From contig NZ_CP107902.1 in NCBI RefSeq assembly GCF_036013935.1, positions 8,217,001-8,281,000 on the forward strand: a stretch of DNA of 64,000 nt, written 5' to 3'. Positions within the stretch are counted from its first letter, which is position 1; each line of letters begins with the position of its first letter. The notes under the pieces were generated by a model, which did no database searches, was not told the origin of the DNA, and worked only from the letters and a program-made list of their open reading frames with translations. The stretch is from Streptomyces sp. NBC_00461. Its GTDB lineage: Bacteria > Actinomycetota > Actinomycetes > Streptomycetales > Streptomycetaceae. Position numbers and translations under genes: made by a program. Positions 49,932 to 63,538 of the stretch are shown piece by piece.

Positions 49932-50106
49932 CGCCAGTGGGCGGCAGGGCGAACCCATGGCCCGGACGCCGGACAGGAAGTGCGCCCCGGCCGGTCGCCT
50001 GCGCAAGCGCGCGGCTGCGCCGCAGGGGGATATGGAGTCATCCTCGAAGGAGAGGCCGTTCACGCTCACCGTCCTCCCAGCTTCTTACGAGACGGAGGAA
50101 GTCGAC

Positions 50107-50982
50107 ATGGAGCCAGTTGTCACCGTGGGCCTCGACGGCTCACCCGAGAGTCTTTCCGCGGCCCGCTGGGCCGCCCAGGAGGCGGAGCGGCGGGGGCTCA
50201 CGCTGCGCCTGCTGCATGCGTGGCCCCTGCTGGTGCCGGAACCTACCGACGTACCCGCGGAGGTGGATCAGAACTACTGGGCGAGGCGGATCGTGCACAA
50301 CGCGCGGGCGGAGCTCCAGGCGCGCCACCCGGGCCTCGTCATCGACGAGCGCCTGGTCGCCGACGACGCCCAGGACGCACTGCTGCACGCGGCGTCGGAG
50401 TCGGAGATGCTCGTGCTCGGCTCGCGTGGGCTGGAATCCGTCGAGAGCTATTTCCTGGGCGACATCAGCTTGTCCGTCGTGGCGCGGGTCGAGCGGCCGG
50501 TGGTTCTGGTGCGTGCCACGACCGGCGAGGACGAGCCATCGCCCACTGCGCGTACATCAGACGGCGTAGTGGTGGCGCTGAAACTGCAGGGGCCCTGCGA
50601 TGACCTGCTCGCATTCGCCTTCGGCACCGCCGTGGCGCGGGGCGTGCCCCTTCGAGCCGTCCACGGCCGAAGGGTGCCGGTGCATGCGCACGTTCCCTGG
50701 GGTGTGGACCACGATGTCAGCGAAGAGATCACGCGGGACGCGCAGAAGAGCCTGAGCCAGGTTCTCCGCCCCTGGCGCGAGAAGTTTCCGGGCGTGGCGG
50801 TGGACGACAGCATCGGTCTCGAAAGCCCCGCCAAGGTCGTCGTACGGTCCGCCGTGGGCGCCGGGCTGCTGGTCGTCGGCCGACGCAAGCACCGTCCCGC
50901 CCTGGGAACCCGCATGGGCTCGGTGGCCCACGCCGCCGTCCACCACGCGCGCTGCCCCGTCGCTGTCGTCCCCCACGAGTGA
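50107..50982 (+). CDS. Universal stress protein with two Usp domains
   Basis: A 291-residue tandem Usp protein. Domain 1 runs from VTVGLDGSPESLSAARWAAQ to MLVLGSRGLESVESYFLGDI, a form of the G2xG9GS ATP-binding loop. Domain 2 ends with LLVVGRRKHRPALGTRMGSV AHAAV and the strand CPVAVVPH. GGAGGAA at 50094-50100 fixes ATG 50107. Mycobacterial relatives belong to the DosR dormancy regulon. I found no clear tandem GGG(A/C)C box pair upstream of this copy. Confidence 0.9.
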   Translation: MEPVVTVGLDGSPESLSAARWAAQEAERRGLTLRLLHAWPLLVPEPTDVPAEVDQNYWARRIVHNARAELQARHPGLVIDERLVADDAQDALLHAASESEMLVLGSRGLESVESYFLGDISLSVVARVERPVVLVRATTGEDEPSPTARTSDGVVVALKLQGPCDDLLAFAFGTAVARGVPLRAVHGRRVPVHAHVPWGVDHDVSEEITRDAQKSLSQVLRPWREKFPGVAVDDSIGLESPAKVVVRSAVGAGLLVVGRRKHRPALGTRMGSVAHAAVHHARCPVAVVPHE

Positions 50983-51748: not shown

Positions 51749-52098
51749 GTCTCACACCCACCCCGGAACGTCACCGTACTCCCGCGTGGCGCCACGCCTT
51801 CGGGCGCCGAACTCGGATGCGGCTGGTCTGGTCGTGAGCATGCTTGTCCCCTCTCTGCGCCGGGCGGGAGCCGGACGGTTCACCCCCCGTCCGCCAAACC
51901 TCCGCCCGTTCACGGCCCGTCGGCCAGGGCCGGTCAGTCCCCGGACGGCGGCATCCGGCCCGGTGCCCGTCGGTCCGCGTGCGGCTGCGCCGGACCCGCG
52001 CCCAGGCGGGGACTGCTGTCGCCCGCAGGGGCCGAACGGCCCTGCGTCGGGGCCGTACGGCCCGCGCCCGTGAGGTCTGGAACCCGGATTCTTGGGGG
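51749..52098. other. Intergenic region between divergent genes
   Basis: No gene is evident. The region contains the tandem palindromes at 52029-52063. Weaker GGGCC/GGCCC-type half-sites lie around 51910-51962 and may belong to the leftward DUF385 promoter. The rest shows nothing I recognise. Confidence 0.5.
52029..52063 (+). promoter_or_regulatory. Tandem DosR-like boxes, 21-bp spacing
   Basis: GGGCC-GAAC-GGCCC (52029-52042) and GGGCC-GTAC-GGCCC (52050-52063) are perfect 5-4-5 palindromes starting 21 bp apart, two helical turns. The architecture equals the mycobacterial DosR box core GGGAC-N4-GTCCC. They lie 35 bases before the small gene at 52099 that leads the P-type ATPase operon. Confidence 0.7.
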
Positions 52099-52281
52099 AT
52101 GAACGCCGCGCATGCGCTGCAGCGGGCACCGTACGTGATACCGGGTGCCGGGATTGCGGCCCGGAATGACCGACCGCACGATGAGGACATGGCCGCCCGC
52201 CACGCCGACCGCTTCGACGTCCTTGGGGCCCGCCGGGCCGTGACGTCCGAGCCCACGGCCAAGCGTGTGGTCGCGCGGTGA
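52099..52281 (+). CDS. Small protein upstream of the P-type ATPase
   Basis: A 60-residue reading frame (ATG 52099) of unknown family, with the text QRAPYVIPGAGIAARNDRPH and an Arg-rich end. It overlaps the ATPase GTG by GTGA and lies directly downstream of the tandem boxes, which argues that it is the first translated unit of the operon. There is no strong ribosome site, so it could instead be leader sequence. Confidence 0.45.
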   Translation: MNAAHALQRAPYVIPGAGIAARNDRPHDEDMAARHADRFDVLGARRAVTSEPTAKRVVAR

Positions 52282-55037
52282 CGGTCAGCGGCCCGGCGGT
52301 GCAGACCCTGGAAGCTCGGGACGTCTTCGCCGCCCTGGACACCTCACCACGGGGACTGGCGCCGGCGGACGTGGCCGTACGGCGGGAGCGTTTCGGCCCC
52401 AACGAGCTGCCGCGGCCCCGGCGCAGGGGCTGGTGGCGGGACCTCGCCGGCCAGTTCACGGACCTGTTCGCGGTGGTGCTGGTCATCGCGTCCGCGATCA
52501 CCTTCCTGGCGTACGTGCTTCAGGAACCCCGGGACACGGGCACCCTGCAGCTGGCCGTGGCGATCCTCTGCGTGGTGCTGCTGAACGCGGCCATCGGCTT
52601 CGTCCAGGAGTACTCCGCCGAGCGGACCGCCGAGTCGCTCCAGGCGATGGTGCCCCACACCTGCCGGGTGCTGCGCGGCGGGGAGCGGCTGGAGCTGCCC
52701 GCCCGCGACCTGGTCCCCGGGGACGTCGTGGTCCTGGAGGCCGGGGACGCGGTACCGGCGGACTGCCGCCTCGTGGAGGCGCATGAGGTCTCGGTGAACA
52801 ACGCGGCGCTGACGGGGGAGAGCGACGCCGTCGGCCGTACCCGCCAGCCGGTGGCGGACGGGCCGGCGCTGGAGGCCCGCAACTGCGTGTTCATGGGCAC
52901 CGACGTTGTGGCGGGCGCCGCGAAGGCCGTGGTGTTCGCCGCGGGCGCCGAGACCGAGTTCGGCCGGATCTTCCGGCTCGCGGCCACGGCGCCCCGCCAG
53001 AAGACCCCCCTGCAGCGCCAGGTCGCCTCGATGGCCCGCCGGGTGGCGGGCGCGGCGCTGGCGATCGGGGCGCTGCTGTTCGCCGTGCGGCTGCCCGCCG
53101 GCGAGCAGCTCGTCGACACCTTCGTCTTCGCGCTCGGTGTGATGGTCGCCATGGTGCCCGAGGGCCTGCCCGCGACGCTGTCGGTGTCACTGGCGATCGG
53201 CGTACGGCGCATGGCCCGCCGGCACGCGCTGGTCAAGAAGCTGCTGGCGGTGGAGGCACTCGGCTCCACCACCGTCGTGTGCACGGACAAGACCGGCACC
53301 CTCACCCAGGCCGAGATGACCGTCGTCCAGGTGTGGGCGGGAGGCGTCCTGCACCCCGTCACCGGAGTGGGGTACGCGCCCGTCGGCGAGGTGACCGACC
53401 CGAAGCCGGCGCGCGAGCTGCTCCGGGCGGCGGCACTGTGCTGCGACGCCCGGATGGTCCCGCCGTCGGACCACGAGGGCTGGCGAGTCCTCGGCGACAC
53501 CACCGAGGGAGCCATACTCGTCGCCGCCACCAAGGCCGGTCTCGATCCGGCAGCCGAAGAGGCGTCCACGCCACGCGTGACGGAGTTCCCCTTCGACTCG
53601 ACCCGCAAGCTGATGAGCACGGTGCACGGCGACCCGCACGGCGGCCACCAGGCGTACGTCAAGGGCGCACCGCAGGAGCTGCTCGCCCGCTGCACAGCCG
53701 TCTTCTGGAAGGGGGAGCGGCAGCCGCTGACCGAGGAACTGCGCGCGGCGGTGATCGGCGGCAACGACGAACTGGCCGCCCAGGGACTGCGGGTGCTGGC
53801 GGCGGCGTCTCGACCTCTCCCCGACGGCCGTCCCACCCAGGACGAGGCCGAATCGGACCTCACCCTCCTGGGCCTGGTCGGCATGCTCGATCCGCCCCGG
53901 CCGGAGGTCAGCGCCGCTGTCGACGCCTGCCGGCACGCCGGCATCCGCATCGTCATGGTCACCGGCGATCACCCGCTGACCGCCGAAGCCGTCGCCCGCC
54001 GGGTGGGCATCGTCCGGGAGCCGGACCCCACCGTCGTGACCGGCATCCAGCTGGACACGCTCGACGACGATGCCGTGGACACTCTGCTCGCCGAGTCGGG
54101 CGAGCTGCTGCTGTGCCGGGTCAGCCCCGAACACAAGATGCGGGTGGTCACCGCCCTGCAGCGGCGCGGCGAGGTCGTCGCCGTCACCGGCGACGGCGCC
54201 AATGACGCCCCGGCCCTCAAGCACGCGGACATCGGCGTCGCCATGGGCGCCTCCGGCACTGACGTCGCCCGGGAGGCCGCCGTCATGGTGCTGCTGGACG
54301 ACTCGTTCGCCTCCATCACCACCGCGGTGCGCCTGGGCCGGTCGGTCTACGAGAACATCCGCAAGTTCCTGATCTACCTCTTCAGCCACAACATCGCCGA
54401 GCTCGTTCCGATTCTCGCGGCCACCTTCGCCGGGTTCCCGCTGGTCCCGATCACCGCCGTGCAGATCCTCGCGATCGACCTCGGCTCCGATGTCCTTCCC
54501 GCCCTGGCGCTCGGCGCCGAGCCGCCGGAGCCCGACGTCATGGACCGGCCGCCGCGCGCGAAGCGTGAACGGCTCTTCTCGACCGCAGTGATGGGCCGGA
54601 TCCTGTTTCTCGGCGGCATCCAGGCCCTCGGCGTGTGCGCCGTGTTCTTCTGGCACATCAACGCCTCCGGCATCCCGTACGCCGACTTCACCGAGGACGA
54701 CACCGTCTACCGGGAGGCGATCACCATGGTCCAGGCCGGGATCGTGGTCAGCCAGTTCTTCAACGCGCTCGCGGTGCGCACCGACCGGCAGAGCGTGTTC
54801 CGGATCGGCCTGCTGTCCAACCCCTGGCTGCTGGCCGCCGGCTGCTTCGGCATCGCGTTGATGGCCGCCATCAGTTACCTGCCGCCCCTGCAGGCGGTCT
54901 TCCACACTGCCCCGCTGGCCGCCGCCGACTGGGCGGTCCTCGCCGGATTCGGCGCACTGCTGCTGGCTGCCGAGGAAACCCGCAAGTGGTGGCTGCGTCG
55001 CCGTCGGCCCGCAGACCGGAGGGAAGGAGTGCAATGA
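52278..55037 (+). CDS. Cation-translocating P-type ATPase (CtpF/PacL-like)
   Basis: A 919-residue membrane pump of P2A type. The N-terminal cation-ATPase domain (APADVAVRRERFGPNELPRP) is followed by helices M1/M2, the actuator motif ALTGESDAVG, the PEGLP helix (MVAMVPEGLPATLSVSLAIG) and the phosphorylation site VVCTDKTGTLTQAEM. The nucleotide domain contains AYVKGAPQELL, and the hinge is VTGDGANDAPALKHADIGVA. Six C-terminal membrane segments complete it. CtpF of M. tuberculosis, a Ca2+ pump in the DosR regulon, has this layout. GTG 52278 overlaps the small upstream gene, and two TrkA genes follow by ATGA overlaps. Confidence 0.93.
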   Translation: MTVSGPAVQTLEARDVFAALDTSPRGLAPADVAVRRERFGPNELPRPRRRGWWRDLAGQFTDLFAVVLVIASAITFLAYVLQEPRDTGTLQLAVAILCVVLLNAAIGFVQEYSAERTAESLQAMVPHTCRVLRGGERLELPARDLVPGDVVVLEAGDAVPADCRLVEAHEVSVNNAALTGESDAVGRTRQPVADGPALEARNCVFMGTDVVAGAAKAVVFAAGAETEFGRIFRLAATAPRQKTPLQRQVASMARRVAGAALAIGALLFAVRLPAGEQLVDTFVFALGVMVAMVPEGLPATLSVSLAIGVRRMARRHALVKKLLAVEALGSTTVVCTDKTGTLTQAEMTVVQVWAGGVLHPVTGVGYAPVGEVTDPKPARELLRAAALCCDARMVPPSDHEGWRVLGDTTEGAILVAATKAGLDPAAEEASTPRVTEFPFDSTRKLMSTVHGDPHGGHQAYVKGAPQELLARCTAVFWKGERQPLTEELRAAVIGGNDELAAQGLRVLAAASRPLPDGRPTQDEAESDLTLLGLVGMLDPPRPEVSAAVDACRHAGIRIVMVTGDHPLTAEAVARRVGIVREPDPTVVTGIQLDTLDDDAVDTLLAESGELLLCRVSPEHKMRVVTALQRRGEVVAVTGDGANDAPALKHADIGVAMGASGTDVAREAAVMVLLDDSFASITTAVRLGRSVYENIRKFLIYLFSHNIAELVPILAATFAGFPLVPITAVQILAIDLGSDVLPALALGAEPPEPDVMDRPPRAKRERLFSTAVMGRILFLGGIQALGVCAVFFWHINASGIPYADFTEDDTVYREAITMVQAGIVVSQFFNALAVRTDRQSVFRIGLLSNPWLLAAGCFGIALMAAISYLPPLQAVFHTAPLAAADWAVLAGFGALLLAAEETRKWWLRRRRPADRREGVQ

Positions 55038-55693
55038 GGGTGATCATCGCGGGCTGCGGGCGGGTGGGATCGGCGCTCGCCATCCAGCTCGTCGCCGAAG
55101 GCCACGACGTACAGCTCATCGACCGCCGGCCCAGGACCCGCAGGCTGCTGCCCACCGGCTTCCCCGGCGGCTTCCACGAGGGCAACGCGTACAGCCGTAC
55201 GGTGCTGGAGGCAGCCGGGATCGAACACGCCGACGCGTTCGTCGCCGCCACCTCGGGCGACAACAGCAACATCGTCAGCGCCCGCACGGCCAAGGAGACC
55301 TACCGGGTCCCCGTCGTCCTCGCGCGCATCTACGACCCGCGCCGCGCCGACATCTACCGCGAGCTCGGCATCCCCACCATCGCCAGCGTCCGCTGGACCG
55401 TGCACCAGATCCACCAGATGCTCCTGCACCGCCACCTCACACCGGAACTCACCTTCGGCAACGGCGAGAGCCTGCTGGTCCGCTCCGAGCTGCCGCCCTA
55501 CCTCAGCGGGCGGCGGCTGGCCGAGTTCGACGTGGACGGAGAGATCCGGGTCGTCGAGGTCACCCGCGGGGGACGGTCGCTCGTGCCCGCCCACAGCACC
55601 CGTGTCGAGCCAGGGGACGTGGTCACCTTCGCCGTCGCGGCCACCGCGCTCGGCCGCCTGCGCGGCTTTCTGGACAAGGAACTGGGGACATGA
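55034..55693 (+). CDS. TrkA-type potassium-channel regulatory protein (first copy)
   Basis: A 219-residue cytoplasmic protein with a TrkA-N NAD-binding domain (VIIAGCGRVGSALAIQLVAE, DAFVAATSGDNSNIVSARTA) and a TrkA-C domain (PPYLSGRRLAEFDVDGEIRV, VEPGDVVTFAVAATALGRL). It gates a K+ channel or transporter in response to nucleotide state. It overlaps both the ATPase and the second TrkA gene by ATGA. Confidence 0.92.
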   Translation: MRVIIAGCGRVGSALAIQLVAEGHDVQLIDRRPRTRRLLPTGFPGGFHEGNAYSRTVLEAAGIEHADAFVAATSGDNSNIVSARTAKETYRVPVVLARIYDPRRADIYRELGIPTIASVRWTVHQIHQMLLHRHLTPELTFGNGESLLVRSELPPYLSGRRLAEFDVDGEIRVVEVTRGGRSLVPAHSTRVEPGDVVTFAVAATALGRLRGFLDKELGT

Positions 55694-56346
55694 AGACTCT
55701 CATCGCCGGAGCGGGCCGCCTGGGCACCCAGATCGCCCAGGTCCTCGCCGCGGCCCGCAACGACGTCACCCTCGTCGACATCGACGACGACCGCGTCGCC
55801 GAGCTCGAAGGCCACCTTCCCGTACACCTGGTGGTCGGGGACGCCTGTGAGCCCGGCGTTCTCGAGCACGCCGGCGTGCTCGCCGCCGATCTCGTCGTCG
55901 CGGCGACCGGTGACGACGAGGACAACCTCGTCATCAGCCTGCTCGCCAAGCGGCAGTTCGATGTGCCCCGTGTCGCGGCACGCGTCAACGACGCGGAGAA
56001 CTCCTGGCTGTTCGACCAGAAATGGGGCGTCGACACAGCGGTCCCCGCGGCCACGCCGCTGATCTCCCTCATCGAGGAGGCCACCGGTGCCACGGACACC
56101 GTCGCCCTGCTGCGCCTGAGCAAGGCCGGCGTCGACGTCATCGAAACCGCCATCACAGCGCAGTCGCGCGCCGTAGGACGCACGCTGGCCGAGGTCACCC
56201 TTCCCGCGGGCGCTGTCATCGTCACCGTCATCCGTGACGGCCAACCCACCGTCCCCGCACCCGAGGTGCGACTCCAGCCCGGCGACGAACTCCTCGTCGT
56301 CTCGCACGCCGCCACCGAACAGGAGATCCACGCCGCCTTCCAGTGA
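55690..56346 (+). CDS. TrkA-type potassium-channel regulatory protein (second copy)
   Basis: A 218-residue paralogue of the preceding gene: TLIAGAGRLGTQIAQVLAAA, then VHLVVGDACEPGVLEHAGVL, AADLVVAATGDDEDNLVISL and TrkA-C (GRTLAEVTLPAGAVIVTVIR, LQPGDELLVVSHAA). Two tandem TrkA genes resemble the CeoB/CeoC pair of actinobacteria, which together regulate K+ uptake. No Trk membrane subunit is in the operon. Confidence 0.92.
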   Translation: MKTLIAGAGRLGTQIAQVLAAARNDVTLVDIDDDRVAELEGHLPVHLVVGDACEPGVLEHAGVLAADLVVAATGDDEDNLVISLLAKRQFDVPRVAARVNDAENSWLFDQKWGVDTAVPAATPLISLIEEATGATDTVALLRLSKAGVDVIETAITAQSRAVGRTLAEVTLPAGAVIVTVIRDGQPTVPAPEVRLQPGDELLVVSHAATEQEIHAAFQ

Positions 56347-56464
56347 CGGCCCGACCCCCGGCTCCCGTACTGTGGCGATTGCCGTTTCCATCAGAGAGCT
56401 CGTTGCCGACCTCGAAGGCCGCCTTCCCCTACGCCTCTTGCCGGGTGCGGAAGTCCGCGGCGAC

Positions 56465-57361
56465 TCACTGATCGGCCGGACTGATGCGCCGCCCCGTCAG
56501 GCGCCTGGGCCGGATCGACACCCACATCTCGCGCTCGCCCCCCGCCCACGGCTCCGTATGGGCCCGATCGGTCAGCCTTCGCACCTCGTCGGGGTCCGTG
56601 ACAACCCGGGCAGGACCGACGGCGAGCACACTCCAGCCCTGGCTCATGACCTGGTTCACATGGTCGACCTCGAAGGCGACATCCGCTCCCACGGCCGCCG
56701 CCGGCGCCGAGCCCGGCGCGGTCCGGAAGACGATGGCGTCGTCGACGACCTCGTAGTTCACGGGGACCACGGCCGGGCCATCGGGTGTCGACACCGCGAC
56801 GCGCCCCACGCCGTGGGTGGAAAGCCTGGCACGGCATTCGTCGGGCCCGAGATCCTGCAGTTGCGGGCGCAGGAGCGCAATGCCCTGTCCCGGTGGCAGA
56901 TCGATGCCGCCCCCGCGCAGGGCCGCGGCGCTCGTGCCGAGCGCGTCGGCCAGCCTGATGAGGCTCGCCAGGCTCGGGTCGGCCGGGTGTTCTTCCAGGT
57001 ACGCCAGGTAATCGGGCGCCATTCTGGCGCGCCGGGCAGTTTCTGCCCGCGTCATTCCCTGCCGCCTGCGCTCGGCGGCAACGCGTCGCCCGATGTCACC
57101 CGGGTTGGGCGCTGGGCCCGGCGGTGTCCTGCCGGACAGAGCACCGGCCTGCTCACCCGTTCTCCCGGGCTGGGGCTCGAGGTGACGGATGTGCGCGTCC
57201 GGGCCGGGGAACACGAGCGTCACCTCGTCCGTGTCCGACCAGCGCACGTCGTAGGGAGGGGTCCCGTCCTCGTGGTGCAGTCCGACAATCTCGCCGTCGC
57301 GCTTGGTTGCGCCGGTGGCCGGGCTTTCGACAACGAGTTGATCGCCGAGTTGAGCTTGCAT
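56465..57361 (-). CDS. DUF1918-HTH-PPOX three-domain protein
   Basis: A 298-residue fusion. Residues 1-65 are a DUF1918 barrel (MQAQLGDQLVVESPATGATK, DGTPPYDVRWSDTDEVTLVF). Residues about 85-150 are an XRE-type HTH (DIGRRVAAERRRQGMTRAET, then ARRARMAPDYLAYLEEH). The rest is a pyridoxamine-5'-phosphate-oxidase-like flavin fold (CRARLSTHGVGRVAVSTPDG, VVPVNYEVVDDAIVFRTAPG, AFEVDHVNQVMSQGWSVLAV). The gene at 59147 has the HTH-PPOX part only. It may be a flavin- or redox-sensing DNA-binding protein. ATG 57361 opens DUF1918 exactly; an upstream GTG at 57439 is possible. Confidence 0.85.
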   Translation of the reverse strand: MQAQLGDQLVVESPATGATKRDGEIVGLHHEDGTPPYDVRWSDTDEVTLVFPGPDAHIRHLEPQPGRTGEQAGALSGRTPPGPAPNPGDIGRRVAAERRRQGMTRAETARRARMAPDYLAYLEEHPADPSLASLIRLADALGTSAAALRGGGIDLPPGQGIALLRPQLQDLGPDECRARLSTHGVGRVAVSTPDGPAVVPVNYEVVDDAIVFRTAPGSAPAAAVGADVAFEVDHVNQVMSQGWSVLAVGPARVVTDPDEVRRLTDRAHTEPWAGGEREMWVSIRPRRLTGRRISPADQ

Positions 57362-57454
57362 GATCGCCACCGCTTCCTCGGAATGGTGCTCTACCCAACG
57401 TGCCACGCGCGGCGTGTCGCCGCACGGTATGAGAAGCACGCGTCCCGGGGACCA

Positions 57455-57468
57455 GGACCGGCCGGTCC
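57455..57468 (-). promoter_or_regulatory. Palindrome upstream of the DUF1918-HTH-PPOX gene
   Basis: GGACC-GGCC-GGTCC is a perfect 14-bp palindrome about 95 bases before the start, next to GTCCCGGGGAC (57442-57452). It resembles, but is not identical to, the GGG(A/C)C-N4 boxes of neighbouring promoters, and may be a variant site. Confidence 0.4.
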
Positions 57469-57500
57469 AGGTCCGAGCGGCCCCCGGCGGGGGCGCGCCG

Positions 57501-57915
57501 TCAGCTCGTCTTGTGCCCCCACCGCGGACCGACCAGATCCCACTGCCTGCCCCACTGGTCAATGCGCCGCCGGTCGAGCCACCAGCGTGCGGCACCGCCG
57601 GCGCCGAAGGCCACGCCGGTCACGGCGAGGGCTGACGCGGCTCCCAGGAATCCCGCTTCGACTGCCGCATCCGTGCGGCTCGGCGGTTGGGTGGTGGGGT
57701 CGCCCTGCGTGTCTGTCCACAGCACGATCCTGGATCCGGCCTTTCGTCCGCCGTCCACCAGGGTCTTGCCGGTGTGGGTGGAGCCGTCCGAGAGGGTCCA
57801 GCGGACCTTCGCGAGGGCCCGGTAGCTCGTCGCCGCCGCGCGGGGTGCGTCCGTGAGGAGTACGGCCTGTACGGGGGTGCGCTCGGCGCGCTGCTGCGCG
57901 AACACGTCGGCGCTC
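57501..57915 (-). pseudogene. Rv1733c-family membrane protein, 5'-truncated
   Basis: The last 135 residues of an Rv1733c-like integral membrane protein are readable: VFAQQRAERTPVQAVLLTDA, KVRWTLSDGSTHTGKTLVDG, RIVLWTDTQGDPTTQPPSRT, the second membrane helix FLGAASALAVTGVAFGAGGA and the tail. The N-terminal cytoplasmic part and first membrane helix are gone. Beyond about 57915 the sequence belongs to a headless Usp gene on the other strand. Rv1733c is a DosR-regulon gene in M. tuberculosis. Confidence 0.7.
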
Positions 57916-57929
57916 GCGAGGCAGCGGTA

Positions 57930-58134
57930 TCCCGCTTCACCATGGCCGAGTTGCGGGAGAAACACCCCGAAGTCGGCGTCGAGACCAGCACAGTTCGTAC
58001 GGGGCCGGCGCACGCCCTGCTGGGTCATCGGCGCCCAGCGCCGCCCCGACCGGCTCGGCCCGCGCCTGGGCCCGGTCGCCCACACCTTGCTGCACCGTTC
58101 CCACTGCCCCGTGGTCGTCGTGCCGGCCCGATGA
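57930..58134 (+). pseudogene. Universal stress protein relic, 5'-truncated and frameshifted
   Basis: The plus strand reads MAELREKHPEVGVETSTVRT, the end of a Usp beta-alpha unit. After a frameshift near 58020-58030 it reads VIGAQRRPDRLGPRLGPVAH and HCPVVVVPAR, the Usp C-terminal ATP-loop and last strand, up to TGA at 58134. The first three quarters of the protein are missing. It lies head to head with the truncated Rv1733c-like gene. Confidence 0.7.
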
Positions 58135-58152
58135 CCTGTCGGCGGCTGAACA

Positions 58153-58201
58153 GGCCCGCACTGCAGGGACGTTCGGCCCTGCAGTGCGGGCCGCGCAGCC
58201 C
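58153..58201 (+). promoter_or_regulatory. DosR-like box pair inside a perfect 16-bp inverted repeat
   Basis: GGGAC-GTTC-GGCCC (58166-58179) and GGGCC-GCGC-AGCCC (58188-58201) start 22 bp apart, about 90-120 bases before the DoxX-like gene. The first box sits at the centre of a 16-bp perfect inverted repeat (58153-58168 with 58177-58192, 8-base loop). That repeat could also fold into a terminator for the Usp relic. Confidence 0.6.
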
Positions 58202-58288
58202 CTGCGAGGCCGGTTGACGAAGCGGGACATTAAAAGCGCCACGAGCGATCAATATCCAGCGCGTCACCCCTTGAAAGGGATGAACATC

Positions 58289-58915
58289 ATGGCAGTTCAC
58301 GAACAGCCCCACCGTCACGTGCGGTTCCACATGCCGTCCGTGCGCAAGGCCGGTGCGGCCCAGCGGCCCGCCGACGGGACCGCCGCCGTCGTCATGGCGG
58401 CGACCAGCGCACACGTCCTCGCCGGGCTCCGGGTCCTGACCGGGTTCGTCTTCCTTTGGGCCTTCCTCGACAAGACCTTCGGCTTCGGCTACGCCACCCC
58501 GTCCGGCAAGGGCTGGACCGACGGCGGCTCGCCGACCAAGGGCTTCCTCGGCTCGGTCGCCGCAGGGCCGATGGAGTCCACCTTCCACGACTGGGCCGGG
58601 GCCGGCTGGGCGGACTGGCTGTTCATGCTCGGACTGCTCGGCATCGGCGTCGCCCTGGTCGCGGGCATCGGTCTGCGGCTCGCGGCCGTGGCCGGCACCG
58701 CGATGATGGCGCTGATGTGGGTGGCCGAGTGGCCGCCCGCCAAGCACCTGTCCGACGGGTCGCCGAGCATGTCGACCAACCCGTTCGCCGACTACCACCT
58801 CATCTACGCCGTCGTCCTCATCGCCCTCGCGGCCGCGGGCGCCGGCGCCGTCTGGGGGCTGGGCAGGATCTGGGCACGCCTGCCCTTCGTCAGCCGCAAC
58901 CGCTGGCTGCTCTGA
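58289..58915 (+). CDS. DoxX-like membrane protein
   Basis: A 208-residue membrane protein with four hydrophobic segments (LAGLRVLTGFVFLWAFLDKT, WLFMLGLLGIGVALVAGIGL, LAAVAGTAMMALMWVAEW, LIYAVVLIALAAAGAGAVWG). A periplasmic-type loop has GYATPSGKGWTDGGSPTKGF, and the signature is STNPFADYHL. It is related to the DoxX/thiosulfate:quinone oxidoreductase small-subunit family of redox proteins. GAAAGGGA at 58273-58280 favours ATG 58289 over 58280. A terminator with a T-rich tail follows. Confidence 0.85.
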   Translation: MAVHEQPHRHVRFHMPSVRKAGAAQRPADGTAAVVMAATSAHVLAGLRVLTGFVFLWAFLDKTFGFGYATPSGKGWTDGGSPTKGFLGSVAAGPMESTFHDWAGAGWADWLFMLGLLGIGVALVAGIGLRLAAVAGTAMMALMWVAEWPPAKHLSDGSPSMSTNPFADYHLIYAVVLIALAAAGAGAVWGLGRIWARLPFVSRNRWLL

Positions 58916-58939
58916 CCTCACAGTGCCGACCGTCCCGGA

Positions 58940-58980
58940 CCGGGGCACTGCCGCAGCGCTGCCACAGTGCCCCGGCCTTC
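58940..58980 (+). terminator. Rho-independent-like terminator after the DoxX-like gene
   Basis: CCGGGGCACTG (58940-58950) pairs with CAGTGCCCCGG (58965-58975). The loop itself contains GCAGCGCTGC, which can extend the hairpin. CCTTCTTCCTGT follows as a T-rich tail, 25 bases after the stop codon. Confidence 0.7.
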
Positions 58981-59008
58981 TTCCTGTGTCGGAGCAGGGC
59001 GGAGTCCC

Positions 59009-59055
59009 GGACCCGTTGGTCCCGTCCGGCTGTGCTCCGGGGGGCCGACCGGCCC
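59009..59055 (+). promoter_or_regulatory. DosR-like box before the HTH-PPOX gene
   Basis: GGGCC-GACC-GGCCC (59042-59055) is a perfect 5-4-5 box 91 bases before ATG 59147. A related palindrome GGACC-CGTT-GGTCC lies at 59009-59022. The spacing of this pair (33 bp) differs from the 21-22 bp seen elsewhere. Confidence 0.5.
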
Positions 59056-59146
59056 AAGCGCACCCAGCCCAAGCCGGACAGCTGGATCCGAGGTGCAATC
59101 CGGGCGCCGAGTCGGCGACCGACCGGACGAGAGGAAGTGACGGGTC

Positions 59147-59821
59147 ATGAGGGAACAGGCACGGTCCCAGGCAGTGGAGGGACCTCCGCTCGGCGATCTC
59201 GGGCGCCGCATCGCCGCCCGCCGCACGGAACTCGGCCTGACCCGGAGGGAGACGGCCACCCGGGCCGGCATGGCACCGGGCTACCTCCAGTACCTCGAGG
59301 AGCGCCCCGGTGCCGCACCGGGGCGAGGCGTCCTCCTCAGACTCACCGCGGTTCTGGGCACCACCGTGCGGGACCTCACCGGCGGCGACACCGAGCTGCC
59401 GCGCGGGCTGGGACAGGCCGCCCGCAGCCCCGGCTTCGGAGAACTGAGCGTCCCGGAGTGCCGGGCCCTGCTCTCGACGCACGGCGTGGGGCGGATCGCG
59501 GTGCCCACCGCCTCCGGGCCCGTCGTCGTGCCCGTCAACTACAGCGTCGTCGACGGCGCGATCGTCTTCCGGACCGAGTCCCGCTCCACCCCTGCGCAGT
59601 CGTCCGGCTGCCAGGTCGCCTTCGAGGTCGACCGCATCGACGACGCGTTCAGCCGGGGCTGGAGCGTGCTGGTGCGGGGCCACGCCCGGACCGTGACGGA
59701 CCCCGACGACATACGCCGCCTCGCCGATCGGGCGCGCAGCGCACCGTGGGCGGGCGGGGACCGCGACCAGTGGGTGCGCATCGATCCCCTCGTCATCACC
59801 GGACGCTGCATCACGGTGTGA
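59147..59821 (+). CDS. HTH-PPOX flavin-fold protein
   Basis: A 224-residue protein with an XRE helix-turn-helix (DLGRRIAARRTELGLTRRET, ATRAGMAPGYLQYLEERPG) and a PPOX-like beta barrel (CRALLSTHGVGRIAVPTASG, VVPVNYSVVDGAIVFRTESR, VAFEVDRIDDAFSRGWSVLV, WVRIDPLVITGRCI). It is the paralogue of the gene at 56465 without DUF1918. It may couple flavin or redox state to DNA binding. ATG 59147 follows GAGGAAGTGACGGGTC. Confidence 0.87.
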   Translation: MREQARSQAVEGPPLGDLGRRIAARRTELGLTRRETATRAGMAPGYLQYLEERPGAAPGRGVLLRLTAVLGTTVRDLTGGDTELPRGLGQAARSPGFGELSVPECRALLSTHGVGRIAVPTASGPVVVPVNYSVVDGAIVFRTESRSTPAQSSGCQVAFEVDRIDDAFSRGWSVLVRGHARTVTDPDDIRRLADRARSAPWAGGDRDQWVRIDPLVITGRCITV

Positions 59822-59824
59822 CCC

Positions 59825-59859
59825 GGGACGTTCTCCGGCCCGTCCGGGACCCTTGGCCC
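59825..59859 (+). promoter_or_regulatory. DosR-like box pair, 21-bp spacing
   Basis: GGGAC-CCTT-GGCCC (59846-59859) is a good box. GGGAC-GTTC-TCCGG (59825-59838), exactly 21 bp upstream, keeps the left half only. They begin just after the stop of the preceding gene and lie 78-112 bases before ATG 59937. Confidence 0.6.
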
Positions 59860-59936
59860 CTCATCACAGGCCCTGGCCCGGCGGAGGATGGAGACAACGC
59901 TCCAACGCTGTACCCAGGTGAGAGACGGGCCGGCCC

Positions 59937-60377
59937 ATGTACCCGAACGACGGTTTCCGCGAACTCGAACGGCAGGAGTGCCTGCGTCTGCTGGCGAAGG
60001 CGCCCGTCGGCCGTATCGTGCACACCCGTCACGCACTGCCCGCGGTGCTGCCCGTCAACTTCTGCGTGGACGCCGACGGCGCCGTCGTGTTGCGCACCTC
60101 GGCGGCCTCGGAGCTGGTCCGCGCGGTCGACGGCGTGGTGGTCGCCTTCGAGGTCGACGAGGTCGATGCGGTCGCCCACTCCGGCTGGAGCGTAGTCGTC
60201 ACCGGATCGGCGACAGTCGTGACCGATCCGGACGAGCACCAGCGCCTGCTCCGGACCGGCCCGCGCTCCTGGGCACCCTCGCCCGAGGAGGTCTTCGTCA
60301 GCATCGAGCCCGAACTGGTCACCGGCCGCGAACTCGTGGGCGGACACAGTCTCTACGGGGTGGACCTGTCGTCCTGA
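59937..60377 (+). CDS. PPOX-family flavin-binding protein
   Basis: A 146-residue single-domain pyridoxamine-5'-phosphate-oxidase-like protein: ECLRLLAKAPVGRIVHTRHA, LPAVLPVNFCVDADGAVVLR, GVVVAFEVDEVDAVAHSGWS, VVTGSATVVTDPDEHQRLL. Such proteins bind FMN, F420 or haem and are abundant in DosR-type regulons. It has its own box pair upstream. Confidence 0.88.
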   Translation: MYPNDGFRELERQECLRLLAKAPVGRIVHTRHALPAVLPVNFCVDADGAVVLRTSAASELVRAVDGVVVAFEVDEVDAVAHSGWSVVVTGSATVVTDPDEHQRLLRTGPRSWAPSPEEVFVSIEPELVTGRELVGGHSLYGVDLSS

Positions 60378-60464
60378 CATCATCACCGGTCCGGCAGGCC
60401 GCTCACGCGCGGGGCGGGCGTGAAGCCGAGCGTCTCCGATCACGCGTCGGGACGGACCGGGAGA

Positions 60465-60499
60465 GGGGCGACCGGCCCCGACCCGGGGCCGGTCGGCGC
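60465..60499 (+). promoter_or_regulatory. DosR-like box pair, 21-bp spacing, before the Acg-type nitroreductase
   Basis: GGGGC-GACC-GGCCC (60465-60478) and GGGCC-GGTC-GGCGC (60486-60499) start 21 bp apart, 60-94 bases before ATG 60559. Each differs from a perfect box at one or two positions. Confidence 0.6.
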
Positions 60500-60558
60500 C
60501 TTGCACCGAGGGCGCCGGCATGTTGAGCTCGGCAGGTGTCCGGAGTGAGGAGGACGCG

Positions 60559-61554
60559 ATGCAACAGACACAGCTCGACGAGAGCACAGTGATCGCGCTG
60601 GTCGCCGAGGCCACGGCAGCCCCGTCCATGCACAACGCGCAGCCCTGGCGCTTCCGCTTCGAAACCGCTGAGCGCCTCCTTCTGCTGCGCGCCGACCCGG
60701 AGCGGGCCATGCCCGCCTCCGACCCCGACAACCGGGCGCTGCACATCGGCTGCGGTGCGGCCCTCTTCAATCTGCGCGTGGCCGCCGCCCACGCGGGTCT
60801 GGGCGCGCAGACGCGGCTGCTGCCCGAGCCGGGGGACCCGTTGCTGATGGCCGCCGTCCAGCTGGTCGGCCCCGCCGGAAAACCGGACCTGGAGGACGAT
60901 CTCGTTCGGCTGCACCCCGCGATCAGGGAGCGGCACACCAGCCGTCACCCCTTCGCGGAGAAGGACGTCCCGGAAGATGTACAGGCCGGGCTGCAGCAGG
61001 CCGCGGCCGCGGAGGGCGGCGTGCTGCTCTTCGCCCGCCCCTGGCACGTCGAGACGTTGCTCGACCTCGCCCACGACGCGGAGAGCCGTGACGCGCTGGA
61101 CGCCGATATGCGGAAGGACCTCGAGCGCTGGACGCGGCTGGGACCGGAGGCGGACACCGCCGTCGACGGCGTCCCCGAGTACGCGTTCGGGCCGCGCAAA
61201 CGGGACGGCAAGGCTCCCCTGCGGGACTTCGCGGCCCGCCGGGCGGTGGCCGACCGCGGCAGCACCGTCTTCGAGCACACGCCTCACCTGGCCCTGCTGA
61301 GCACCTCCGGCGACGGGCCCGCCGACTGGCTGCGCGCCGGTCAGGCTCTGGAGCGCGTCCTGCTCGAAGCCACCCGGGCCGACCTGGCCACCTCCCTGAC
61401 CTCCCATCCGCTGGAAAGCATCGACCTGCGCCGACTGGCCCGCGACCCGGTGCAGGGCACCGGCCAGGTGCAGATGGTGCTGCGCCTCGGCTACGGTCCT
61501 CACGGTCCGGACACACCCCGTCGGCCCGTGGCCGACGTCCTCGACATCGTGTGA
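60559..61554 (+). CDS. Acg-type nitroreductase family protein
   Basis: A 331-residue flavin-type nitroreductase of the Acg/Rv3131 group: APSMHNAQPWRFRFETAERL (FMN-binding start), DPDNRALHIGCGAALFNLRV, RHTSRHPFAEKDVPEDVQAG, RGSTVFEHTPHLALLSTSGD, VQMVLRLGYGPHGPDTPRRP. The tandem half-nitroreductase layout is complete. In M. tuberculosis these are strongly DosR-induced, and Acg itself may store flavin. GAGGAGGA at 60547-60554 fixes ATG 60559. A perfect hairpin ends the gene. Confidence 0.9.
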   Translation: MQQTQLDESTVIALVAEATAAPSMHNAQPWRFRFETAERLLLLRADPERAMPASDPDNRALHIGCGAALFNLRVAAAHAGLGAQTRLLPEPGDPLLMAAVQLVGPAGKPDLEDDLVRLHPAIRERHTSRHPFAEKDVPEDVQAGLQQAAAAEGGVLLFARPWHVETLLDLAHDAESRDALDADMRKDLERWTRLGPEADTAVDGVPEYAFGPRKRDGKAPLRDFAARRAVADRGSTVFEHTPHLALLSTSGDGPADWLRAGQALERVLLEATRADLATSLTSHPLESIDLRRLARDPVQGTGQVQMVLRLGYGPHGPDTPRRPVADVLDIV

Positions 61555-61584
61555 CCGCGCCGCGGTGGATCCCGCGGCGCGGTC
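61553..61584. terminator. Bidirectional hairpin terminator
   Basis: GACCGCGCCGCGG (61553-61565) pairs perfectly with CCGCGGCGCGGTC (61572-61584) around a six-base loop. It overlaps the nitroreductase stop and sits 18 bases before the end of the convergent SHOCT gene, so it can serve both. Confidence 0.75.
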
Positions 61585-61601
61585 GGTGTTCGGTGATGCC
61601 C

Positions 61602-61889
61602 TCAGTGTTTGGTGAGGTCGGCGCCCTCGGCGCGGAGCACCTGCAGACGGCGCCGGTACTCCTCCTCGTCGATCTCGCCGCGCGCGAAGCGTTCCGCGAG
61701 CAACTGCTCGGGCGAGGCCTGCGTGGGCGGTGCCCATGGCGGGCGGTGCGGCCCTGTCGGCTGCGGGCGGTCGAAGGCGCGCAGGAGCAGCACGAAGGCG
61801 GCGATGATCAGCCCCCAGAAGACGATCATGCCGAGGGATGCTCCGAACCACCCCCAGCCGCTCATGTGGTGGTCGTACCAGAACATCAT
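61602..61889 (-). CDS. SHOCT-domain small membrane protein
   Basis: A 95-residue protein with one membrane segment (FGASLGMIVFWGLIIAAFVLLL), a Pro-rich linker and a C-terminal SHOCT motif (SPEQLLAERFARGEIDEEEY, RRRLQVL). SHOCT domains are short oligomerisation units. Minus-strand start ATG 61889 follows AGGAAGTG. The box pair at 61998-62032 lies 109-143 bases upstream, so it probably belongs to the same regulon. Confidence 0.85.
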   Translation of the reverse strand: MMFWYDHHMSGWGWFGASLGMIVFWGLIIAAFVLLLRAFDRPQPTGPHRPPWAPPTQASPEQLLAERFARGEIDEEEYRRRLQVLRAEGADLTKH

Positions 61890-61997
61890 GGTGATCACTT
61901 CCTGACGGCGAGGACCATTGAGGACCGGAGTCGGGACACGGCTGCACCGGGGTGCCCGGTCACCACCACGCTCCCGCTGCCCGGCAGGCATGTGCAG

Positions 61998-62032
61998 GGG
62001 CCGGGTTGCCCATGGCGACGGACAGTGGTCCC
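61998..62032 (-). promoter_or_regulatory. DosR-like box pair, 21-bp spacing, before the SHOCT gene
   Basis: GGGCC-GGGT-TGCCC (61998-62011) and CGGAC-AGTG-GTCCC (62019-62032) start 21 bp apart, each one mismatch from a box. A separate perfect 11-bp inverted repeat, GTGGTCCCGGT with ACCGGGACCAC (62025-62035, 62042-62052), overlaps the second box. Confidence 0.55.
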
Positions 62033-62099
62033 GGTCGTGTCACCGGGACCACGGTTGTGGCCGTCGCAGCCGTTCGGGGCAGGGGCCGCCGGGGTCACC

Positions 62100-62560
62100 T
62101 CATGGGCCGGGTGGGCCGTTTCTCGGCCCACTGCCGAGGACCGGCAGTTCGACGCACTCCGCCGTGCGGACCACGTACTTGAGCGCGACACCGAACAACC
62201 ACGGCATCCCGCGAACGCCCTCCTCGATCGGAACGATCCTCGGGCACCCAGTTCCAGCCGTTCATCCCCCAGCCTCATCCGGCACCTCCCGGCAGCCCGG
62301 ATGTTCTTCAACCAGTCGGACTCCCGCCCGAGTTGACGCCGATCACGGCCGTGTCGCCTGTGCGGAAGGCACGCAGCGGCGTGTGGCGCACCTTGCCGGA
62401 GCTGCGGCCGGGGTGTTCGAGATCGGCGAAGGCGAGCCGACCGGCGAGCCGGAGGGTCGTCCGGTTGATGCGGCCGCGTGTGCGGTGAGCGAGGACTCGG
62501 GGGAAGGGCACGTGGACCGGGCCTCCCAGGAACAGGGGAATGCGGATGCTCCCATGACGC
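62100..62560 (-). pseudogene. Deazaflavin nitroreductase (DUF385) with two frameshifts
   Basis: The minus strand carries a DUF385-type protein in three successive frames. NRTTLRLAGRLAFADLEHPG and HTPLRAFRTGDTAVIGVNSG lead to a shift near 62325. Then SDWLKNIRAAGRCRMRLGDE RLELGA leads to a shift near 62245. Then PRIVPIEEGVRGMPWLFGVA and YVVRTAECVELPVLGSG end at TGA 62102-62100. The order and content match one intact ancestral gene, so two indels have killed it. The 5' end is unclear. Confidence 0.75.
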
Positions 62561-62801
62561 GCTCCCGTGCATGCCTTCCGACAGATGCCGAGGGCCCAGT
62601 CGGGTCCCGCGCTCGACCTGACCGGGGCGACACACCGGCGCCGAGGGTCCCTGTTCCACGTACTGGCCCTGGTGGGCAACCGGCTCCGGGACCAATGGGC
62701 CCGCACCGGGGACTTGTGGCCGCTCACCGCCGCCGGGGCTGCGCCAGAAGGATCGATCCCGGATCGACCGATCCCCAGCCACCCGCACAAGGAGCGCAGC
62801 C
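62561..62801 (+). promoter_or_regulatory. Leader of the permease relic, with DosR-like box pair at 62688-62722
   Basis: No gene is seen here. GGGAC-CAAT-GGGCC (62688-62701) and GGGAC-TTGT-GGCCG (62709-62722) start exactly 21 bp apart, 80-114 bases before ATG 62802. Both keep the left half-site and have imperfect right halves. AAGGAGCG before 62802 is the ribosome site. Confidence 0.55.
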
Positions 62802-63402
62802 ATGTCGAGAACCACACGGAGCGGAGCGGGACCCGCTCCCCCGGCACTGGGGCTGCCTGCCGCATCCGCCCTCGTGATCGGCAGCATCATCGGCACCGGC
62901 GTGTTCGCCCTGCCATCGGCGCTCGCGCCGTACGGGCCGATCTCGCTGGTGGCGTTCGTCGCCGTCACGGTGGGCGCGCTGGCGCTGGCCGTGACCTTCG
63001 GGGCGCTGTCGAAGCGGGTACCGGCGAGCGGCGGGCCCTACGCCCATGCGCGCGAGGCCTTCCGGGAGTTCGCGGGATTCCTGAACGCCTGGTCGTACTG
63101 GATCACCGCGTGGGCCGGGAACGCCGCGATCGTGGTGGCCTGGGTCGGGTATGTCGAGGTGTTCGTCAACACCGGTCACAGGACAGGGATTTCGGTACTC
63201 ATCGCGCTGGTCGGGCTCTGGATCCCGGCCGCGATCAACCTCACCGGAGTGCGGAACATCGGCGTCTTCCAGGTGATCACCACCGTGCTATCTGCGCAAG
63301 CAGGGCATCGAGATCGTCACCATCGCCGGGGCCGAGCTCGGCCGCGGCCGGGGCGGCCCGCGCTGCATGAGCTGCCCGATCGAACGCGACCCGGTCGCCT
63401 GA
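62802..63402 (+). pseudogene. arcA: Amino-acid permease N-terminus joined to arginine deiminase C-terminus
   Basis: From ATG 62802 about 165 residues of an APC-family permease are intact ([59 protein letters not shown]). At about 63292 the text switches, in another frame, to the end of arginine deiminase: [36 protein letters not shown], including the catalytic cysteine, ending at TGA 63400-63402. A permease-deiminase gene pair has been reduced by one deletion. Neither protein can be functional. The gene symbol refers to the deiminase part. Confidence 0.8.
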
Positions 63403-63424
63403 TCCCACACCACGAGGACCCGTC

Positions 63425-63538
63425 ATGGCCATCGCCCCGACCGTCGACCTGCGAGGCCGCTCCTACCTGAGCGGACCGGTGACGCACGCGGCACTGCAGC
63501 ACGCCTCCGCGCCGGTTGCGGTGGTCCCGCACGATTGA
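63425..63538 (+). pseudogene. Universal stress protein C-terminal relic
   Basis: A 37-codon frame (ATG 63425 to TGA) reads GRSYLSGPVTHAALQHASAP then VAVVPHD, the C-terminal helix and last strand of a Usp domain. Everything before is missing apart from a short stretch (MAIAPTVDLR). It lies 22 bases after the deiminase remnant. Confidence 0.65.

Follow-up and report, generated by a model that had tools for sequence, protein, structure and literature searches.

What could place the same 14-bp palindrome, mostly in pairs whose starts are 21 or 22 bp apart, in front of one gene after another in a single stretch of a Streptomyces chromosome? The window (the whole stretch of DNA analysed, 64,000 nucleotides) holds the left part of a gene island that runs from window coordinate 48001 to about 104000 (~56 kb), beyond the window end. 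The answer argued here is that the boxes are, very probably, operators of an OsdR/DosR-type regulator encoded in the island itself, to which paired dimers would bind cooperatively to activate low-oxygen and stress genes. A first-pass annotation had listed 13 boxes, and all 13 lie at its coordinates, with pair spacings of 21 or 22 bp. The predicted operators and the genes around them are as follows; scores in bits come from the matrix described below the list.

50032..50982, plus strand: two-domain universal stress protein (Pfam) at the left island edge; the 300 bp before it lack a good pair
52029..52063: tandem operator, boxes 52029 and 52050, 21 bp apart, 15.8 and 15.3 bits
52278..55037, plus strand: P-type cation (Ca2+-type) ATPase (Pfam)
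55034..56346, plus strand: two TrkA-type genes (Pfam), overlapping the end of the ATPase gene
58166..58201: tandem operator, 22 bp, 14.0 and 9.4 bits, before a membrane-protein-like gene
58280..58915, plus strand: the gene behind the 58166 pair, a putative membrane protein by sequence reading; codon bias, no Pfam match
59042..59055: single operator, 14.8 bits, before the HTH-PNPOx gene
59147..59821, plus strand: HTH plus pyridoxamine-phosphate-oxidase-like (PNPOx) protein (Pfam)
59825..59859: operator pair, half-site 59825 (-4.3 bits) and good site 59846 (9.5 bits), before the PNPOx-like gene
59937..60377, plus strand: pyridoxamine-phosphate-oxidase-like protein (Pfam PF12900, E 1.9e-29)
60465..60499: tandem operator, 21 bp, 9.5 and 11.3 bits, before the nitroreductase gene
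60559..61554 (longer form 60520-61551), plus strand: nitroreductase-family protein (Pfam)
61602..61898, minus strand: SHOCT-domain small protein (Pfam)
61998..62032: weak tandem operator, 21 bp, 6.5 and 4.4 bits, upstream of the minus-strand SHOCT gene
62083..62117: weak tandem operator candidate, boxes 62083 and 62104, 21 bp, 5.6 and 9.2 bits, absent from the first-pass annotation
62688..62722: tandem operator, boxes 62688 or 62689 and 62709, 8.2 or 10.9 and 6.1 bits, before the truncated amino acid permease gene
62802..63470, plus strand: amino acid permease cut short, then an arginine deiminase tail in another frame (profile matches)

The matrix is symmetric, was built from 131 sites in 21-22 bp pairs of nine other stretches (maximum 16.2 bits), and has the core GGGCCGNNCGGCCC. 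Twelve of the 13 window boxes score 4.4 to 15.8 bits with it. The remaining one, 59825, had been taken for a full box: it is a half-site (6/10 core matches), although its partner is good; genome G092 retains the same half-site at 21 bp from the partner box, and related boxes occur in S. ureilyticus and G073. The consensus first proposed, GGG(A/C)C-N4-GGCCC, is exact in five of the 13 boxes and inexact in the other eight. Likewise, the proposed distance of 35-145 bases from the gene start fits five plus-strand genes (59-91 bp) but not the 52029/52050 pair, which lies 214 bp before the ATPase gene start; 61998/62019 is 99 or 6 bp upstream of the SHOCT gene, depending on the start chosen.

For counting, each site was scored as matches out of 10 to GGG(A/C)C-N4-G(G/T)CCC, and a pair was one site of at least 9 with another of at least 8. 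Perfect (10/10) sites number 17 in the 56-kb island, whose borders were set after a first look at the signal, while three control regions, 280 kb together, have 4; there are none in window positions 1-48000 and none in the 40 kb on either outer side of the island. Pairs within the island at 20, 21 and 22 bp number 4, 9 and 4, a total of 17 where the other spacings predict 1.9 and where 200 first-order shuffles average 2.0 and reach 6 at most. The spacing had been said to have predictive value, and on unseen data it does: in 80 kb around a DosR-type regulator at nine places (eight other genomes and this genome's own second copy), there are 39 pairs at 21 bp and 28 at 22 bp, or 67 with about 14 expected. 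At 20 bp the pooled count is 14; the other spacings from 14 to 90 bp average 7.2 pairs and never exceed 13. Contributions are uneven: pairs at 20-22 bp number 19 in G092, 21 in G073, 14 in G007 and 7 in G012, and 3 to 5 in each of the other five stretches; perfect sites in the 80 kb number 0 for G088 and 2 for G120. The stretch around a 57% identical core paralogue (G031), left out of the pool as a contrast, has 2, 2 and 2 pairs at 20-22 bp.

The first island also shows a weak excess of pairs (3, 1 and 4) at spacings around 50-52 bp, some five turns of the helix; in the unseen stretches this peak is again weak (2, 8 and 12 pairs against the mean of 7.2). One locus, L096 of genome G171, has two perfect GGGAC-N4-GTCCC sites 50 bp apart.

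The excess is local. The whole genome (10.37 Mb, a single contig) was scanned for pairs of GGGVC-N4-GBCCC with at most two mismatches, with 26 bp as control spacing. Such pairs occur at 13, 7 and 6 places for spacings of 21, 22 and 26 bp; the corresponding reversed-pattern controls are 10, 13 and 15. A genome scan with a pair constraint, as the first-pass annotation had suggested, thus bears out an excess in the islands, while its totals are not clearly above reversed controls. Nine of the 20 places at 21-22 bp are inside two DosR islands (seven in this one, two near 808 kb), and none of the six at 26 bp. Pairs with 0 or 1 mismatch number three at 21-22 bp, all in this island, and one at 26 bp, elsewhere; 52029/52050 is the only pair in the genome at 20-22 bp with both boxes matching at zero mismatch. 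The pair code therefore belongs to the islands. Scatter of the regulon across the whole chromosome was considered and rejected: outside the islands, 11 places at two spacings face 6 at one control spacing. Nor is there genome-wide enrichment of GGGAC-N4-GTCCC, with 19 sites against 16 in the reversed control. Mere coincidence in 71% GC DNA, where GGGCC and GGCCC words are frequent, could draw on these whole-genome totals for loose pairs and on the single word GGGVC-N4-GGCCC, which at 254 and 213 on the two strands stays below its reversed control (450 and 446), but it has next to no chance of being right, as the island-specific excess and sharp spacing peak are absent from the 280-kb control and the shuffles, and the same 21-22 bp peak recurs in nine unseen stretches.

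Promoters tell a similar story. A good pair was defined by a spacing of 20-22 bp, a summed score of at least 14 (each site counting for at most 12) and a position no more than 300 bp upstream. In this genome, 14 of 22 hand-chosen genes have one; seven sets of control spacings give 0 to 4 of 22. Among orthologous promoters, 43 of 92 have a good pair against 5 to 16 for controls, a partly in-sample comparison, as the same stretches trained the matrix; matches below 45% identity or with an unaligned start were dropped, and one promoter was skipped for its length. The best pair before the membrane-protein gene is at 22 bp in six of six species, 78-97 bp from the start; that of the Usp91 promoter has a sum of at least 19 in six of six places and ends 114-118 bp before the start; that of the Hsp20 promoter is at 21 bp in three of three. 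Because the orthologue scan admitted 20, 21 and 22 bp only, the evidence of conservation lies in score and position. Good pairs are lacking before the nitroreductase gene in S. ureilyticus, before the Usp78 and phosphoketolase genes, and before the kinase gene in six of eight stretches; in this genome, the kinase, phosphoketolase, Usp50 and Usp78 genes have low upstream pair scores.

The genes themselves are of low-oxygen and dormancy types. Pfam matches in the island include universal stress proteins, the Ca2+-type ATPase and two TrkA proteins (these three genes likely form one operon), PNPOx-like proteins, a nitroreductase, Hsp20, CBS-BON proteins, a P-ATPase with hemerythrin, a flavodoxin, a phosphoketolase, an acyl-CoA-ligase-type protein, a cyclic-nucleotide-binding protein and zinc dehydrogenases; no nitrate reductase is found among the island proteins scanned. 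A search for the nitroreductase among the named genomes found two loci only, both in Streptomyces; with genome size and GC content, they point to that genus for the present genome.

Some of the genes are fragments. Within 62802-63402, the permease match breaks off roughly 150 positions into a profile of 427; behind it, in another frame, comes a match to the final 32 positions of the arginine deiminase profile. Judged by these profiles, this is what remains of an arginine deiminase unit under a predicted OsdR-type operator. At 57853-58134, shortly before the 58166 operator, a universal stress protein is represented by its tail alone (Usp profile 108-141, just below the curated cut-off). A short ORF at 49512-49931 matches only the beta-barrel N-domain of the ATP synthase alpha/beta subunit, and is possibly a remnant.

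A regulator of the DosR/OsdR type, as predicted from the boxes, is indeed encoded in the same island. Beyond the window end, at window coordinate 88292-89059 on the minus strand, lies a LuxR response regulator. Among solved structures its best relative is DevR/DosR (3c3w, E 4e-74; next VraR, 2.5e-42), with which it shares the recognition-helix segment EKTVKN. A GAF-GAF histidine kinase gene lies at 64303-66030, also beyond the window end and 22 kb from the regulator gene; its best solved relatives are the DosT GAF (2vzw, E 1.8e-48) and DevS, and the HPPM histidine segment is kept. The kinase is inferred to be of the heme-GAF type and presumed to sense low oxygen or NO. A second DosR-type regulator, 91% identical and with the same recognition helix, is at contig 808025-808738, in a smaller island (region 788001-828000 of the contig) that has pairs at 806593 and 808752 and 6 perfect sites in 80 kb.

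Two known systems invite comparison. The OsdK/OsdR (SCO0203/SCO0204) regulon of S. coelicolor has the consensus 5'-AGGGCCGATCGGCCCT, tested by EMSA; its core equals that of the matrix, an osdR mutant shows little or no expression from three promoters of this kind, binding is known for the phosphorylated regulator, and OsdR binds M. tuberculosis DevR target promoters in vitro (PMC5069765). The targets around that regulator are also alike: usp, nitroreductase, PNPOx, hemerythrin, zinc dehydrogenase and Crp-like genes (PMC5069765). Kinase and regulator form an operon there (PMC5069765) but stand 22 kb apart here, and the present genome has two regulator copies and two islands. The regulon of DevR/DosR, the dormancy switch of M. 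tuberculosis, has a homologous regulator and kinase, close-packed boxes, and strong sites with weak ones; full induction requires DevR on a high-affinity and an adjacent low-affinity site, filled cooperatively (PMC3029386). Since the core is that published for OsdR, the island is, on the evidence of its sequence, an OsdR regulon of the known kind in another streptomycete, with regulon and consensus already published. A DosR-type regulator nearby, a GAF kinase, palindromes of the OsdR consensus upstream of stress genes and close-packed boxes are all found, and this island gene set, together with the matrix core, supports the OsdR/DosR-type hypoxia or dormancy regulon that the first-pass annotation had proposed. 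What the pairing adds to a list of OsdR-like sites is a rule for the operator: a 14-bp palindrome is accompanied by a second one at 21-22 bp, and often one of the two is strong, the other weak. Neither "tandem" nor "spacing" is used in the main text of PMC5069765; the literature search covered open-licence papers.

Given the published consensus, EMSA and mutant and the strong-plus-weak arrangement like that of DevR, the following scheme can be read from the island. One regulator dimer would occupy each 14-bp palindrome; at 21-22 bp, or two helical turns, a pair of dimers would face the same side of the DNA, as a rule on one strong and one weaker site. Low oxygen or NO, sensed by the heme-GAF kinase at 64303-66030, would be the trigger, and the phosphorylated regulator would then fill both boxes cooperatively and activate the stress and low-oxygen genes. 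Several points count against this reading: the regulator and kinase genes are not adjacent, 61998/62019 is weak, 59825 is a half-site, eight of the 22 promoters fail, and the strength of the signal varies between genomes.

The operators are not of the M. tuberculosis type. The core of the M. tuberculosis DevR/DosR operator is of the GGGAC-N4-GTCCC type; the island has one such site and 12 of GGGCC-N4-GGCCC. The regulators differ as well: after the shared KN, DevR has Tyr-Val and the island regulator His-Ile. HI follows KN in 13 of 14 Streptomyces island rows and II in one; YV follows in DevR, in five regulators from outside the genus and in the G031 core paralogue. Both site types were counted within 10 kb of each regulator, against expectation from composition, at 78 loci: 18 initial ones and 60 more picked from hit lists by identity class and contig position, blind to helix and sites. 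Around the 30 Streptomyces KNHI loci, GGGCC-N4-GGCCC occurs 83 times (expected 21.1; in 28 of the 30) and GGGAC-N4-GTCCC not at all (3.2); the two KNNI loci have 4 (1.2) and 0 (0.2). Streptomyces KNYV loci, 21 in number, have 2 of GGGCC-N4-GGCCC (14.3) and 16 of GGGAC-N4-GTCCC (2.2; in 15 of 21); the 25 KNYV loci outside the genus have 1 (12.5) and 16 (2.1; in 11 of 25). KN(H/N)I regulators thus total 87 and 0 sites of the two types, KNYV regulators 3 and 32. Sites that mix the two types (A with G, or C with T) total 27 for KNHI (expected 16.5), 7 for KNNI (1.0), 4 for Streptomyces KNYV (11.3) and 12 for KNYV outside the genus (10.2). In the four genomes where both paralogues were sampled, each has its own site type in G012, G075 and G098; the KNYV locus of G071 has neither. 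A weaker partner at 22-23 bp is frequent, though not general, beside the Tyr-class sites.

At the 78 loci, then, operator class goes with the recognition helix; the correlation is strong but falls short of demonstrating a switch. The columns that separate the classes (46 Tyr rows against 35 His/Asn/Ile rows) are query 221, 222, 224, 231 and 235, all of which fall within the DNA-binding domain; at column 224 the residue of DevR itself is Arg. By alignment, column 221 is DevR residue 184, adjoining Asn183, which in DevR is a base contact. GC content is rejected as the cause of the operator shift, because GGGAC is retained at Streptomyces KNYV loci of similar GC. Nor can a strict one-residue switch be accepted. 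Three KNYV order-mates, 67-68% identical, depart from the rule: G047 has three mixed sites, G044 neither pure type, and G040 one GGGCC-N4-GGCCC beside other types. A Streptomyces KNRI regulator (G282, locus L173) has no typical site within 7 kb and is a candidate for a third specificity. The non-Tyr class is one clade (support 100/99), and so a single evolutionary event, which Fisher values for the association leave out of account; with only one switch in the tree, and with OsdR binding DevR targets in vitro, causality is unproven.

The same correlation bears on who reads the boxes. The island also encodes a Crp-like protein (90543-90983) and an OmpR-type protein (77107-77772), either of which might be served in place of the DosR homologue. 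The Crp and OmpR families bind motifs of other kinds, and the shift of operator class with the DosR-type helix across the 78 loci makes such a user very improbable; the motif core is, besides, the published OsdR consensus (PMC5069765). Closer to home is the second DosR-type copy, which might share the sites or even be their main user. Its own smaller island with pairs and its identical recognition helix speak for this, while the first copy sits inside the larger island; a role for the second copy is rather unlikely, and would be compatible with the reading preferred here, in which the boxes are operators of the regulator encoded among them.

The core Streptomyces KNYV paralogue may, to judge by synteny, be SCO3818. 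Each of its two annotated loci contains a PNPOx gene together with a PASTA kinase gene, and G242 also a transketolase-type gene; these surroundings presumably match the SCO3818 neighborhood. Wherever the paralogue locus has a GGGAC-N4-GTCCC site (15 loci), this lies 3' of the paralogue gene, and in G106 it directly precedes the PNPOx gene. On the two-alphabet reading given below, the predicted target of the Tyr-Val paralogue is the adjoining PNPOx gene on its 3' side. The present genome has no close relative of this paralogue: the best matches are the two OsdR-type copies (62% and 61%), then 42%. The paralogue, presumed to be SCO3818, combines KNYV with GGGAC-N4-GTCCC, in contrast to the His-Ile and GGGCC-N4-GGCCC of the island regulator. 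SCO3818 is likewise a DosR-like, NarL-family orphan regulator, and in S. coelicolor OsdK phosphorylates both it and OsdR (PMC9739842, PMC3881020, PMC5069765).

Beyond the known regulon, then, the informative parts are the pairing rule and the match of site type with regulator type. One may venture, at somewhat less than even confidence, that the two residues after Asn183 set two operator alphabets (Tyr-Val for GGGAC-N4-GTCCC, His(Asn)-Ile for GGGCC-N4-GGCCC), and that in many Streptomyces OsdK would feed one regulator of each, OsdR and SCO3818: two outputs from one sensor. This could explain how two regulators under one kinase come to have separate targets, an open point in the OsdK/OsdR/SCO3818 literature as far as the parts consulted go. 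The comparison suggests that a one- or two-residue change in the recognition helix went with an A:T to C:G step in the site of a widespread dormancy regulator.
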